From Paenibacillaceae bacterium (GTDB lineage Bacteria; Bacillota; Clostridia; Lachnospirales; Lachnospiraceae): 33,141 nt of DNA. Shown piece after piece: positions 27,944 to 31,297 of the stretch. The notes beneath the pieces are model-generated. The model was not told the origin of the DNA. It saw only the letters and a list, made by a program, of their open reading frames with translations, and made no database searches. A program made the position numbers and the translations under genes. The first letter of the stretch is position 1. Every line of letters begins with the position of its first letter. The stretch lies in contig SVDS01000046.1 in assembly GCA_015057715.1 (NCBI GenBank), positions 1 through 33,141 on the forward strand, given 5' to 3'.

Positions 27944-27972
27944 TTGACACATTTCGCATTCTGCATTAATAT
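27944..27972 (+). promoter_or_regulatory. Consensus promoter for the cysK leader
   Basis: Perfect -35 TTGACA (27944-27949), 17-base spacer, TAATAT (27967-27972). An imperfect dyad AACAT...ATGTT (27979-28000) follows around the likely transcript start and could be an operator. The start of cysK is almost 300 bases further on, leaving a long leader. Confidence 0.85.
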
Positions 27973-28025
27973 AATTATAACATATAAACATATTAATGTT
28001 GTAGGTAGAAAGGTGGCAGTTCCAT

Positions 28026-28133
28026 ATGAAAAAGAACAGAGATCAGATTAACCGTAAGTGGAATCAGTATATATGTTGTTGCCAGGCTGTTTGTTATAGA
28101 AATAAAACAGTTTTATTGGATTGCTCTTTCTAA
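28026..28133 (+). CDS. Cysteine-rich leader peptide of the cysK attenuator
   Basis: A 35-codon frame read directly from the bases: ATG at 28026, TAA at 28131. Residues 1-16 are basic/polar (MKKNRDQINRKWNQYI), then three consecutive Cys codons C17-C18-C19 (TGT TGT TGC, 28074-28082), C23 (28092-28094) and C33. Five Cys in 35 residues is far above chance for this genome. AAAGGTGG (28009-28016) nine bases upstream is a proper ribosome site, and a consensus promoter precedes it. It ends two bases before the 3' arm of a stem whose 5' arm starts inside the third Cys codon. By analogy with trp/his-type leaders, ribosome stalling at the Cys codons would report cysteinyl-tRNA shortage. The peptide itself probably has no function. 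Confidence 0.75.
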   Translation: MKKNRDQINRKWNQYICCCQAVCYRNKTVLLDCSF

Positions 28134-28221
28134 TGCCTGGCAGCATCGGATATGGGGATATTTATTTATCCCATAAAAGATGAAAGCAGGTGCCTTAGGA
28201 GCAGCTGCTTCTTTATAATTT
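28080..28221 (+). promoter_or_regulatory. Attenuator region: alternative hairpins between leader peptide and cysK
   Basis: Stem A: TGCCAGGC (28080-28087) with GCCTGGCA (28135-28142), perfect, its 5' arm covering the end of the Cys run. Inside it TAGAAA/TTTCTA and AATAAAA-CAG-TTTTATT also pair. Stem B: ATGGG(G)ATA with TATCCCAT (about 28152-28173). Stem C: AAGCAGGTGC (28184-28193) with GCAGCTGCTT (28201-28210), one mismatch, followed by CTTTATAATTT, terminator-like. An alternative pairing GGCAGC (28139-28144) with GCTGCT (28204-28209) would link the 3' arm of A to the right arm of C and break the terminator. The antiterminator is a proposal from pairing by eye. Confidence 0.55.
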
Positions 28222-28269
28222 AAAAACAATATAATGAAATAATAAAATGATAATATGGAGGATAAGGAT

Positions 28270-29202
28270 ATGGGATCAATTAAAGAAAGCGCAGTAGAAC
28301 TTATTGGAGGAACACCGATACTGAAAATCAGCCGCTACGGTGCAGCAGAGGGTGTAGAAGGAGTTACGCTTCTGGCAAAGCTGGAATATCTAAATCCAGC
28401 CGGATCCGTAAAGGACCGGATCGCTTTAGCCATGATTGAAGATGCAGAGGAAAAAGGAATTTTAAAACCAGGAGCTACTATTATTGAACCAACTTCCGGT
28501 AACACTGGAATCGGTCTTGCAGCTGTAGCAGCGGCAAAGGGGTATAAAACAATCCTGACTCTTCCTGATACCATGAGCGTGGAACGAAGAAATCTCTTAA
28601 AGGCATATGGCGCAGAGCTGGTTCTCACAGAAGGTGCCAAGGGTATGAGAGGTGCCATAGAAAAAGCAGATGAATTAAAGGATACCATTGAAGGATCCGT
28701 TATATTAGGTCAGTTCGTAAATCCTGCCAACCCAAAAGTGCATAAAGAGACAACAGGACCAGAGATCTGGGAACAGACTGACGGAACCGTTGATATCTTT
28801 ATTGCAGGCGTGGGTACAGGCGGAACTGTAACAGGTGTTGGTGCATATTTAAAGGAAAAGAATCCTAATGTGCAGATTGTTGCAGTGGAACCGGCAAGCA
28901 GCCCCGTACTTAGCGGAGGCAAACCAGGACCTCATAAGATTCAGGGAATTGGTGCGGGATTTGTACCAGAGGTATTAAATACTGCAATCTATGATGAAGT
29001 AATTACTGTTGAAAATGAAGATGCATTTAAAGAAGGCAAATCATTTGCAGTTACAGAAGGAATTCTGGTTGGTATTTCCTCCGGAGCTGCATTAAAAGCA
29101 GCAAAGCTTGTTGCGGAAAGACCTGAAAACAAGGGAAAGACCATTGTTGTATTACTTCCCGATTCTGGTGATCGTTATCTTTCAACACCATTATTTGCAT
29201 AA
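28270..29202 (+). CDS. cysK: Cysteine synthase A (O-acetylserine sulfhydrylase)
   Basis: 310-residue PLP enzyme making cysteine from O-acetylserine and sulfide. The PLP Lys is K48 in NPAGSVKDR, the substrate loop is PTSGNTGIG, the phosphate-binding glycine loop is [12 protein letters not shown], and the C-terminal [10 protein letters not shown] and DSGDRYLST are typical of CysK. An ATG at 28255 overlaps the Shine-Dalgarno itself (TGGAGG, 28256-28260); the ATG at 28270 is nine bases from it and gives the usual N-terminus, so it is chosen. It is preceded by the Cys-codon leader and hairpins described above, which would link its expression to cysteine supply, and is followed by its own terminator. 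Confidence 0.93.
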
Positions 29203-29349: not shown

Positions 29350-30327
29350 ATGGCGATAGAAGATAAATTCGGTAAGGTAGCAACCAGTGAGGATGCACAT
29401 GAAGTATCGGAAACAGGGGCTTTTGTAAGACAGGATAATTATTTTATCACTCCTTTTGGCAGTGGTGAGGGTGAACTTCCGGTTGAAGCCGAAAGATACC
29501 GGCTGATTTGGACTCCCCTTTGTCCCTGGGCTACAAGACAGATCATTGCACTGAAACTTTTGGGGCTGGAAGATGTAATCAGCGTTGGAACCGTCAGTCC
29601 GGTCAGGACAGAGAACGGCTGGGAATTTTCTTTAGATGAGGGAAATGTGGATCCAGTACTTAAAATTCGTTATCTGCCTGAGATCTATGCAGAAACCGAT
29701 CCAGACTACGAAGGAAGAGCAACCGTTCCTGCGGTTGTAGATTTAAAAACACGGAAGGTGGTAAACAACGATTATCATCATCTGACTAATTACTGGGAGA
29801 CTGTGTGGAAACCGTTTCATAAGCAGAACGCACCAGATCTTTATCCCGAACACTTAAGAAAAGAAATTGATGAACTGAATGTAATTCTATTCCATGAAAT
29901 TAATAACGGAGTATACAAAGCCGGGTTTGCCAAGTCCCAGACGGAATACGAAAAAGCGTATGATGTTTTGTTTCAGAGACTTGACTGGCTGGAGGAGCGG
30001 CTCTCAAAAAGCAGATATTTATTTGGAGATCAGATTACCGATTCCGATATCCGGCTTTATGTAACACTTGCCAGATTTGATACAGCATACTATTTTGCAT
30101 TTAAGACCAACAGAAACCGGTTATCAGAATTTGAAAATCTGTGGAATTATGCAAAGGATCTATATTCCATACCGGCATTTAAGGAAGCCACAGATTTTGA
30201 TTCCATTAAAAAAGGATACTTACTTGGAAATCATGCACATAACCCATATGGTATTCTTCCCTTAGGACCGGATTTATCAATCTGGGATGAACCTCATAAC
30301 AGGAAAGAAAAATTTGAAGCAAAGTAA
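29350..30327 (+). CDS. Glutathionyl-hydroquinone reductase-like (Xi-class GST, YqjG/ECM4 family)
   Basis: 325 residues. The thioredoxin-fold motif WTPLCPWATRQ with catalytic C58-P-W-A is the signature of S-glutathionyl-(hydro)quinone reductases, followed by the family pattern TVPAVVDLKTRKVVNNDYHH and an all-helical C-terminal domain (RYLFGDQITDSDIRLYVTLA). Known members use glutathione to strip glutathionyl groups from quinones. Few Clostridia make glutathione, and this gene leads an operon with a cystine-type importer, so it may act on imported glutathione adducts or another thiol; that is inference. AAGGAAAAAAT precedes the ATG at 29350; an in-frame ATG at 29296 overlaps the promoter and is not used. 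Confidence 0.8.
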   Translation: MAIEDKFGKVATSEDAHEVSETGAFVRQDNYFITPFGSGEGELPVEAERYRLIWTPLCPWATRQIIALKLLGLEDVISVGTVSPVRTENGWEFSLDEGNVDPVLKIRYLPEIYAETDPDYEGRATVPAVVDLKTRKVVNNDYHHLTNYWETVWKPFHKQNAPDLYPEHLRKEIDELNVILFHEINNGVYKAGFAKSQTEYEKAYDVLFQRLDWLEERLSKSRYLFGDQITDSDIRLYVTLARFDTAYYFAFKTNRNRLSEFENLWNYAKDLYSIPAFKEATDFDSIKKGYLLGNHAHNPYGILPLGPDLSIWDEPHNRKEKFEAK

Positions 30328-30358: not shown

Positions 30359-31297
30359 ATGAAAAGAGATGGATTAAAAAAGGCGATAGTTGGAGTATTG
30401 GGAGCAGCCACCATATTAGGAGCATTGTCCGGATGCAGCAGTAATTCACAGAAACCAGCTGAAACTACCTCAGCAAAAGCATCAGAAGAATCAAAGAAAG
30501 AGGAAACAAGCTCTGCAACAGCCCAGTCAGGCAGCGAAACCACTGCAGCGGCAGAACCTGTCACAATTTATGCGGCAACAGGCGGATCCCCTAAGCCATT
30601 CACATTTGTAGACAGCAGCAATCAGCTGACTGGTCATAACATTGAACTGATTAAAGCTGTTTTTGACCGTCTTCCCCAGTATAAACTGGAAATAGAAGTA
30701 ACGGATTTCCCATCGATTTTTGCGGGACTTGATTCGGATCGTTACCAGATTGGAGTGAATAATTTTGCAAAAAATGAAAAGAGAAAAGAAAAATATTTAT
30801 TTACAGATCCCATTTTTGCCAACGAGTACGTTGCAGTTTTTGCAAAAGGTAATAAGAAGGCGGAGAGCATCAATACCTGGGAAGATCTTTCCGGATTAAA
30901 AACCATATCACAATCAGGAATTAACATCACAACTGCTTTGGAAAACTACAATACAGCAAATCCTCAGAAAGCCATTAACATTGAGTATAGCGAAGAGGAT
31001 CTGGTCCTTCAGATACAGGATGTGGAAGCTGGAAAATATGATTTTGTTTTAATGGATAAACCCATGTATGAATATTACGAAAAAGAATTCAATTTTAACG
31101 TGACAGGGGTTTCCATCAGCAGTGATGTAGCAAAGGATTTAATGGAAGAGCCTTACAGCTACTTAATTGTAAGCAAAGGGAATGAAAAGCTGGTTGAGGA
31201 TCTTAATCAGGCATTAAAAGAAGTGATTGAAGACGGAACCTCTAAGGAAATCAACTTAAAATGGTTCGGTTCCGACTATTCTCCTTCTTATAAATAA
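30359..31297 (+). CDS. Amino acid (cystine-type) ABC transporter substrate-binding lipoprotein
   Basis: 312 residues. A lipoprotein signal peptide with lipobox ALSGC (C26) is followed by a Ser/Thr/Glu/Lys-rich linker to about residue 65 and a family-3 solute-binding domain (YAATGGSPKPFTFVDSSNQL, then GHNIELIKAVFDRLP, FPSIFAGLDSDRYQIGVNNF, KYLFTDPIF). Relatives such as TcyJ/TcyK bind cystine or related sulfur compounds. It is anchored outside the membrane and delivers ligand to the permease. GAGGAG precedes the ATG by a normal distance. It is 31 bases after the GST-like gene and is the first of three consecutive transporter genes. Cystine specificity comes from context and resemblance and is not proven. 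Confidence 0.85.
   Translation: MKRDGLKKAIVGVLGAATILGALSGCSSNSQKPAETTSAKASEESKKEETSSATAQSGSETTAAAEPVTIYAATGGSPKPFTFVDSSNQLTGHNIELIKAVFDRLPQYKLEIEVTDFPSIFAGLDSDRYQIGVNNFAKNEKRKEKYLFTDPIFANEYVAVFAKGNKKAESINTWEDLSGLKTISQSGINITTALENYNTANPQKAINIEYSEEDLVLQIQDVEAGKYDFVLMDKPMYEYYEKEFNFNVTGVSISSDVAKDLMEEPYSYLIVSKGNEKLVEDLNQALKEVIEDGTSKEINLKWFGSDYSPSYK

Follow-up and report, generated by a model that had tools for sequence, protein, structure and literature searches.

A probable cysteine-sensing leader-peptide attenuator of cysK in Lacrimispora, with scattered relatives in Lachnospiraceae

Introduction

How might a member of the Clostridia match expression of its cysteine synthase gene to the supply of cysteine (Cys)? 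The question is raised by the cysK locus on contig SVDS01000046.1 (assembly GCA_015057715.1), a 33,141-nucleotide stretch from the Lachnospiraceae genus Lacrimispora that is referred to here as the window. Sulfur metabolism in Firmicutes is usually controlled by T-boxes, S-boxes or CymR. In the window, cysK is preceded by a short frame with a run of Cys codons, by stems that exclude one another and by a terminator-like hairpin. An initial annotation of the sequence had read this arrangement as a leader peptide whose Cys codons operate the terminator. From comparison with relatives and from RNA folding, we conclude that cysK is very probably preceded by a ribosome-mediated transcription attenuator that responds to cysteine. 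Comparison and computation support the frame, the Cys codons, the mutually exclusive stems, the terminator-like hairpin, the conservation of all these parts and the identity of the target gene. That the frame is translated, that ribosomes stall in it and that transcription ends or reads through accordingly are predictions.

A Cys-codon leader precedes cysK

The promoter, Shine-Dalgarno motif, 35-codon frame, Cys-Cys-Cys run, 8-base-pair stem and terminator-like hairpin of the initial annotation were all found as placed (Table 1). The leader peptide contains five Cys residues (codons 17, 18, 19, 23 and 33), and by sequence alone its frame is a translatable short frame with a ribosome site. A Shine-Dalgarno-like motif stands ahead of 30 of the 31 listed leader starts, a feature that partly guided the choice of those starts. 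Segments of the leader fold better than their shuffles, with z = -2.74 for 27985-28260, z = -3.90 for 28070-28225 and z = -4.27 for 28074-28146. For cysK itself, the ATG at 28270 behind GGAGG (28257-28261) is the more likely start than the mechanical open reading frame start at 28255.

The leader is conserved within the genus. A DNA search of 25 Lacrimispora genomes located the region in 22, and inspection of the loci one by one found the leader in 21. The initial annotation had made its proposal depend on conservation of the Cys codons and frame in relatives, and both are conserved: Cys-Cys-Cys is kept in 20 of the 21 leaders, the exception being Ser-Cys-Cys in L010, and L016 has four Cys. 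The later Cys of Q(A/T)VC is retained in 18 of 21. The N-terminal halves vary in sequence and length while the Cys run stays. Divergent family members also keep such a leader, and the proposal of a Cys-codon leader peptide operating a terminator before cysK in Clostridia is thereby strongly supported. Only cysK of 72-73% identity was recovered from G014 and G016. A promoter comparable to that of the window lies upstream of cysK at Lacrimispora loci, including those of the two leader-less genomes, G004 and G011, which appear from their sequences to be natural losses of the leader within the genus.

Leaders also differ in where the frame ends. Most other genus leaders carry an in-frame stop (TTGTAATGC) at the place of 28116-28133; the clade of the window has TTGGATTGC instead. 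With no stop there, the frame of the window's clade continues, and its stop falls inside the antiterminator strand.

Stems and terminator

Stem pairing was assessed in an alignment of 20 distinct genus leaders (A1). Stem A, its inner hairpin and the terminator together pair in 95.6% of alignment cells, compared with at most 56.2% when the partners are slid. The synonymous-site covariation that the initial annotation had proposed to look for in the stems is found at the third Cys codon. Column pair 18-76 of stem A is UA in 11 rows, CG in 7 and UG in 2, and because column 18 is the wobble base of that codon, a synonymous substitution there is accompanied by a matching change in the partner column. 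Column pair 27-42 of the inner hairpin, located at a Val wobble base, is AU in 12 rows and UA in 7. None of 500 shuffles matches the cell count or the covariation score of the three stems; 260 of the 500 match the count of double-change pairs. The duplex energy of stem A differs from shuffles at p<0.05 in 18 of 42 leaders, 16 of them in the genus (16/21), and the window has p 0.003. A stem that overlaps the control codons and is predicted to block the antiterminator is thus supported within the genus.

A hairpin scan of the region before cysK found one terminator-like hairpin in the window against a mean of 0.2 in shuffles. A longer T-run follows the hairpin in 13 of the 21 genus leaders (not in L001-L006, L010 and L015). 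In 34 of 44 leaders, an automatic finder detected a U-run hairpin 3' of the leader at -12.8 kcal/mol or better; these are 13 of the 21 genus leaders and 21 of the 23 others. It chose a second hairpin for L027, a weak one for L065 and none for L075.

The predicted antiterminator uses the left arm of the terminator

For antiterminator folding, leaders were cut immediately 5' of the terminator right arm. In the window, 28128-28133 is predicted to pair with 28195-28200 and 28135-28139 with 28187-28191. This pairing with the terminator left arm and loop is the minimum-energy structure of 28098-28200, the transcript past a stalled ribosome, at -26.7 kcal/mol (z -1.75; 12 of 200 shuffles are equally good). 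Unsupervised RNAalifold on 20 genus leaders (A2, all except the duplicate L012) returned a single helix, RCCUG with CAGGU, paired in 20/20 rows; its consensus core is CCUG/CAGG plus a G-U or A-U pair. In 12 leaders chosen from 42 for a shared motif (A3), RNAalifold returned 10 pairs, UUAUGAURCCU with AGGURCCAUAA, in a helix that joins sequence 3' of the Cys run to the terminator left arm and loop. Twelve such pairs are formed in 93.5% of A3 cells, compared with at most 54.9% when slid, and 15 of 500 shuffles attain this pairing percentage and 6 of 500 the covariation score.

We also compared cognate with exchanged partners among 20 clade representatives. This swap test gave p 0.02 for the left arm and loop and p 0.44 and 0.85 for two controls. 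Folding and comparison thus point to a conserved antiterminator that is mutually exclusive with the terminator, with modest support from the swap test.

The initial annotation had drawn the antiterminator differently, pairing 28139-28144 with 28204-28209 in the terminator right arm, and this part of its model did not hold up. The right arm reached p 0.066 in the same swap test. Its duplex has p<0.05 in 1 of 42 leaders (window p 0.057); in the duplex tests, genus terminators were all assigned by a sequence rule, and the L027 terminator was assigned manually. The CAGC that this pairing requires is missing in L014, L016, L017 and L021. It is superseded by the left-arm pairing, found both as the minimum-energy fold of the window and as the consensus core of the 20 genus leaders.

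Predicted switching

RNA polymerase would transcribe the leader while a ribosome translates it. With ample Cys-tRNA, the ribosome would pass the Cys run, reach the stop at 28131-28133 and cover the 5' strand of the antiterminator. After its release, stem A (28080-28087/28135-28142) could sequester that strand. With the strand occupied, the terminator at 28184-28210 would form and transcription would end before cysK. In cysteine shortage, the ribosome would stall at codons 17-19 and stem A could not form. In this stalled state, 28128-28139 would pair with 28187-28200, the nascent terminator left arm and loop, allowing read-through into cysK.

To represent these states, we computed the pairing of the terminator left arm and loop with upstream RNA in 42 leaders (L065 and L075 were left out). 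The mean was 0.65 with the ribosome on the last Cys codon, 0.31 with the ribosome at the stop codon, 0.52 without a ribosome and 0.50 with shuffled upstream sequence. The stalled value exceeds the shuffled mean in 35 of the 42 leaders and in 17 of the 20 clade representatives. It exceeds the at-stop value in 41 of 42 (19 of 20 representatives), a comparison that is trivial in part, since a ribosome at the stop leaves less RNA free to pair. It exceeds the no-ribosome value in only 29 of 42 (11 of 20 representatives), so that the blocking stem is not evident outside the genus. Eight leaders found later gave 0.73 stalled, 0.24 at the stop and 0.51 shuffled, with 8/8 above the at-stop value and 7/8 above the shuffled one, although these leaders are not wholly independent because they were located by a model containing the motif.

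The two limits of the ribosome comparisons count against attenuation, and several further observations weigh on the same side. Taken alone, the window does not stand out in the switching computation (stalled 0.52, shuffled 0.56), and its U-tract is imperfect (28210-28221, TCTTTATAATTT). The automatic finder chose another hairpin in L001-L005 and found none in L006, L010 and L015. Double-sided changes are scarce, occurring in 3 of 25 pairs of the three A1 stems, 0 of 5 pairs of the A2 helix and only 2 of 12 pairs of the A3 helix, and those in the genus may be single clade events. Stem A lacks family-wide support (swap p 0.18 across the 20 clade representatives), and the left-arm duplex has p<0.05 in 5 of 42 leaders, with p 0.52 for the window. 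Promoter and cysK are kept in G004 (L013) and G011 (L144) while leader and terminator are gone. In L006, a one-base deletion 3' of the Cys run alters the C-terminus of the peptide. The stems of L006 remain intact, so the peptide tail seems unimportant.

Table 1. Features of the cysK leader region in the window.
Feature	Position	Strand	Basis
Sigma-70-type promoter, TTGACA-17-TAATAT	27944-27972	+	10/12 consensus matches
Degenerate copy of the 17-bp (base-pair) palindrome CCTAY-N7-RTAGG	27989-28005	.	Palindrome near start site in relatives
Shine-Dalgarno-like AAGGTGG of leader frame	28010-28016	+	Sequence
Leader peptide frame, 35 codons, MKKNRDQINRKWNQYICCCQAVCYRNKTVLLDCSF	ATG 28026 to TAA 28131-28133	+	Translation
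Putative regulatory Cys codons 17-19 (TGT TGT TGC)	28074-28082	+	Conserved in relatives
Stem A 5' arm (anti-antiterminator), starting in third Cys codon	28080-28087	+	96.1% of cells paired
Small hairpin within stem A	28087-28092/28105-28110	+	98.3% of cells paired
Antiterminator 5' strand, UUCUAA-U-GCCUG	28128-28139	+	Window fold, genus consensus, equivalents in relatives
Stem A 3' arm	28135-28142	+	Perfect 8-bp pairing with 28080-28087
Hairpin B inside antiterminator	28151-28175	+	Fold of cut window transcript
Intrinsic-terminator-like hairpin with inner pairs	28184-28189/28205-28210; imperfect U-tract to 28221	+	Scan, alignment, fold
Antiterminator 3' strand (terminator left arm and loop), CAGGUGCC-UUAGGA	28187-28200	+	Window fold, genus consensus, equivalents in relatives
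cysK, cysteine synthase A (probable start ATG 28270)	28270-29202	+	NCBIfam TIGR01139, E 1.1e-132, above cut-off

Distribution in the family and beyond

Across the family, we tested 95 cysK loci, mostly from a family sample and including the window (L053) and six other genus loci. Eight were dropped for lack of an N-terminal match and 87 were anchored. Cys-rich short frames occur upstream of cysK on the sense strand in 10 of the 87 regions (window included) and on the antisense strand in one; each of 20 shuffled sets contained 0-3 such frames. Of the eight amino acids tried, Cys alone shows a clear sense-strand excess. Five of the ten sense matches have a clear terminator (L056, L057, L058, L064 and L085), and the window has one with a weak U-tract. 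Not counted as attenuators were L065 and L075, which have no good terminator, and L110 and L111, which lay outside the scope of the terminator check. With few of the 87 loci having both leader and terminator, the leader characterizes only a minority in the family.

Other searches recovered more leaders. A pattern scan of genome contigs gave 51 stretches, judged by frame and downstream sequence. Such leaders account for 24 of them, with 11 from the genus and 13 from other contigs (mostly named Lachnospiraceae, several from deer), and the other 27 are not leaders. The Cys run comprises 3 to 6 codons in these 24, and interrupted clusters occur in some other family leaders. A Cys-codon DNA pattern matched 15 of 397 family genomes (the reversed-pattern control, 1), with 7 leaders and 8 matches that are not. 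In the same 397 genomes, search R1 matched 43 at E 0.1 or better, with 6 leaders among the 28 non-genus loci inspected, and search R2 matched 32 genomes with 34 matches. The 19 new R2 loci inspected comprise 8 leaders, 10 that are not and one remnant, and three more new matches came without a locus. In the remnant (L296, genome G362), the antiterminator-like and terminator sequences of a cysK leader are kept and the Cys run is missing.

Outside the family, 66 loci from Clostridia were sampled. Twelve lacked an N-terminal match and were dropped, and 4 of the remaining 54 were family members. The 50 cysK upstream regions tested yielded one unconvincing sense match (L243) and three antisense matches.

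Target genes and mixed Met/Cys leaders

Leaders also precede genes other than cysK. A MetQ-like gene (Pfam NlpA lipoprotein) follows the leader of L025, and MetN-like genes (Pfam ABC_tran) follow those of L028 and L292-L295. The MetN-like genes carry a NIL domain in L028 and L292-L294, and not in L295, a 233-residue frame. All of the MetQ/MetN-like genes score below the curated cut-offs of their best NCBIfam models, and these names are therefore best matches. Further leaders stand before solute-binding proteins of family 5 (L027) and family 3 (L173), an amino-acid-type ATP-binding cassette (ABC) permease (L300), a rhodanese-TusA-DsrE protein (L297), an M20 peptidase (L309), a NifB-like radical SAM gene (L181) and a frame with a partial ABC domain (L290). 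The L177 leader is followed by a presumably cysE-like gene, judged solely by its N-terminus; a search of NCBIfam with the 45-residue fragment gave no match. By sequence, the identified targets are largely sulfur amino-acid genes, and leaders with Cys clusters or mixed methionine (Met) and Cys codons are scattered in Lachnospiraceae before cysK, metN/metQ-like and other genes.

Codon content differs between the leaders of these targets. Six metN/metQ-like leaders were compared with 16 cysK leaders, one per clade, with starts chosen by the analyst. Met content after the start is 17.8% in the former and 6.7% in the latter (Mann-Whitney p 0.0006), and Cys content is 12.0% and 15.9% (p 0.11). Met codons adjoin Cys codons in the metN/metQ-like leaders (L025, L028 and L292-L295). 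Lachnospiraceae may possess a dispersed regulon of leader-peptide attenuators in which ribosome stalling signals the supply of sulfur amino acids, a picture that we consider plausible but somewhat doubtful. Its codons would be tuned to the target, with Cys runs for cysteine genes and mixed Met-Met-Met/Cys runs for methionine importers; its members would share variants of one antiterminator (UUAUGAURCCUG/CAGGURCCAUAA), with an older operator upstream. If so, the Met codons would be genuine sensors and one leader peptide would give dual sensing of Met and Cys.

A radical SAM gene similar to the NifB-like genes recurs 3' of leader-bearing cysK in L057 (by Pfam) and in L166, L174, L178 and L179 (by the sequence start only). 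In L026 (G185), an apparent short cysK remnant stands behind a Cys leader and terminator, and after it comes a NifB-like radical SAM gene.

Alternative explanations

The initial annotation had seen no T-box or other known RNA signature, and our searches agree. No Rfam family reaches its gathering score in the window; permissive settings gave three matches, all far short of that score and none to a T-box. Nor did 40 leader-less cysK loci contain a T-box, the sole Rfam matches being two tRNAs and one Gut-1 RNA. A DNA-binding protein is another candidate regulator. The palindrome CCTAY-N7-RTAGG occurs upstream of cysK in 28 of the 84 regions from the family, or in 30 if spacers of 4-9 are allowed, and in 0-1 in 20 mononucleotide-shuffled sets, at leader-bearing and leader-less loci alike; a similar palindrome is found in 10 of 54 class-sample regions. 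Our guess from the sequence is that it is a candidate operator of the Rrf2/CymR type, and CymR control of cysK has been proposed in Clostridium acetobutylicum (PMC3828012). A DNA-binding repressor at this palindrome could control cysK and the leader could be a relic or minor. The abundance of the palindrome and the promoter region retained in leader-less G004 and G011 speak for a repressor, but it would leave the conservation and covariation of the leader unexplained, and the palindrome is perfect in only 6 of 22 genus loci and degenerate in the window. We regard control by a repressor with the leader reduced to this role as highly improbable; a repressor layer and a leader layer are compatible.

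Stalling at the Cys codons could alternatively alter access to the cysK ribosome site and leave transcription unaffected. Cysteine genes of Mycobacterium smegmatis are described as under translation attenuation (PMC13236596, citing another paper), the Cys runs of L065 and L075 come with no good terminator, and the U-tract of the window is weak. Yet 34 of 44 leaders are separated from the gene by a good hairpin and U-run, and it is the terminator left arm, not the cysK Shine-Dalgarno motif, that takes part in the conserved alternative pairing; both points make translation attenuation improbable here. The least probable of these alternatives is that the product of the frame is a small Cys-rich peptide with a function of its own, such as binding metal or thiols, and that the hairpins serve simply as a constitutive terminator and a spacer. 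The core CCCQ(A/T)V(C/Y) is indeed conserved in most of the genus and part of the family, but the termini and the number of Cys vary, the deletion in L006 changes the C-terminus while the stems stay, and the Q-A-V codons lie largely within stem arms. A constitutive terminator would also sever cysK from its sole evident upstream promoter. Transcription attenuation by the Cys-codon leader is our preferred reading.

Neighboring genes

Downstream of cysK, the window encodes at 29359-30327 a protein that we take to resemble a glutathionyl-hydroquinone reductase of the ECM4 type, with no NCBIfam match. A solute-binding protein starts at 30359; in NCBIfam it matches a cystine transporter protein best, with a score below cut-off. 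Permease and ATPase frames follow it and reach 32814.

Comparison with known systems

Several known systems in other phyla share features with this leader. The uORFC-8-2 motif of Rhodobacterales cysS leaders, for which ribosome-mediated attenuation has been proposed computationally, likewise has tandem Cys codons in its first stem and a U-run fitting an intrinsic terminator (PMC8632094). It belongs to Alphaproteobacteria and cysS, whereas the leaders here belong to Clostridia and to cysK and other genes; the two are set apart by description, not by sequence. Leader peptides of Actinobacteria cys operons likewise carry Cys-codon runs in short frames before cysteine genes, but are described as having no conserved terminator hairpin (PMC1262725), in contrast to the intrinsic-terminator-like hairpin found here. 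Mycobacterial polycysteine frames are also short frames with Cys runs before cysteine genes (PMC13236596). They differ in a leaderless start, according to the title of the cited paper, and in translation attenuation; here a promoter and a Shine-Dalgarno motif lie upstream of the ATG. The metL leader before metNIQ of Streptomyces lividans, MSTTSDRTPATEATTTPGARCMCRRMCAF, has mixed Met/Cys codons like L025, L028 and L292-L295, but is described as leaderless and without a typical Rho-independent terminator, and that paper names Met and Thr (PMC8079986).

Within Firmicutes, the His leaders of hisS/hisZ in bacilli (PMC2965389) and the Leu-rich ilv leader of Staphylococcus aureus (PMC5794164) are classical attenuators that differ in the sensed amino acid and the genes. 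The Cys T-box of cysK, cysP1 and cysP2 in Clostridium perfringens (PMC2940859) likewise brings about cysteine-dependent premature termination before a clostridial cysK by sensing tRNA-Cys charge. There the RNA reads the tRNA directly, and the accessible text mentions no leader peptide; no T-box was found here. Among the open-licence papers listed in our literature searches, we recognized no cysteine leader attenuator in Clostridia, which is not proof of absence since the lists cover only part of the literature and subscription papers were mostly outside their scope.

The mechanism itself is already known, and the novelty lies in the sensed amino acid, the host group and the targets. If the reading is correct, cysteine, and possibly methionine, would join the few amino acids sensed by leader peptides in Firmicutes. 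It would also add an option for family cysK loci without a known riboswitch (20 examined), though a minority carry such a leader. The genus, which has named strains in culture, would offer a defined cysK switch, and G004 and G011 could serve for comparison as natural losses of the leader.

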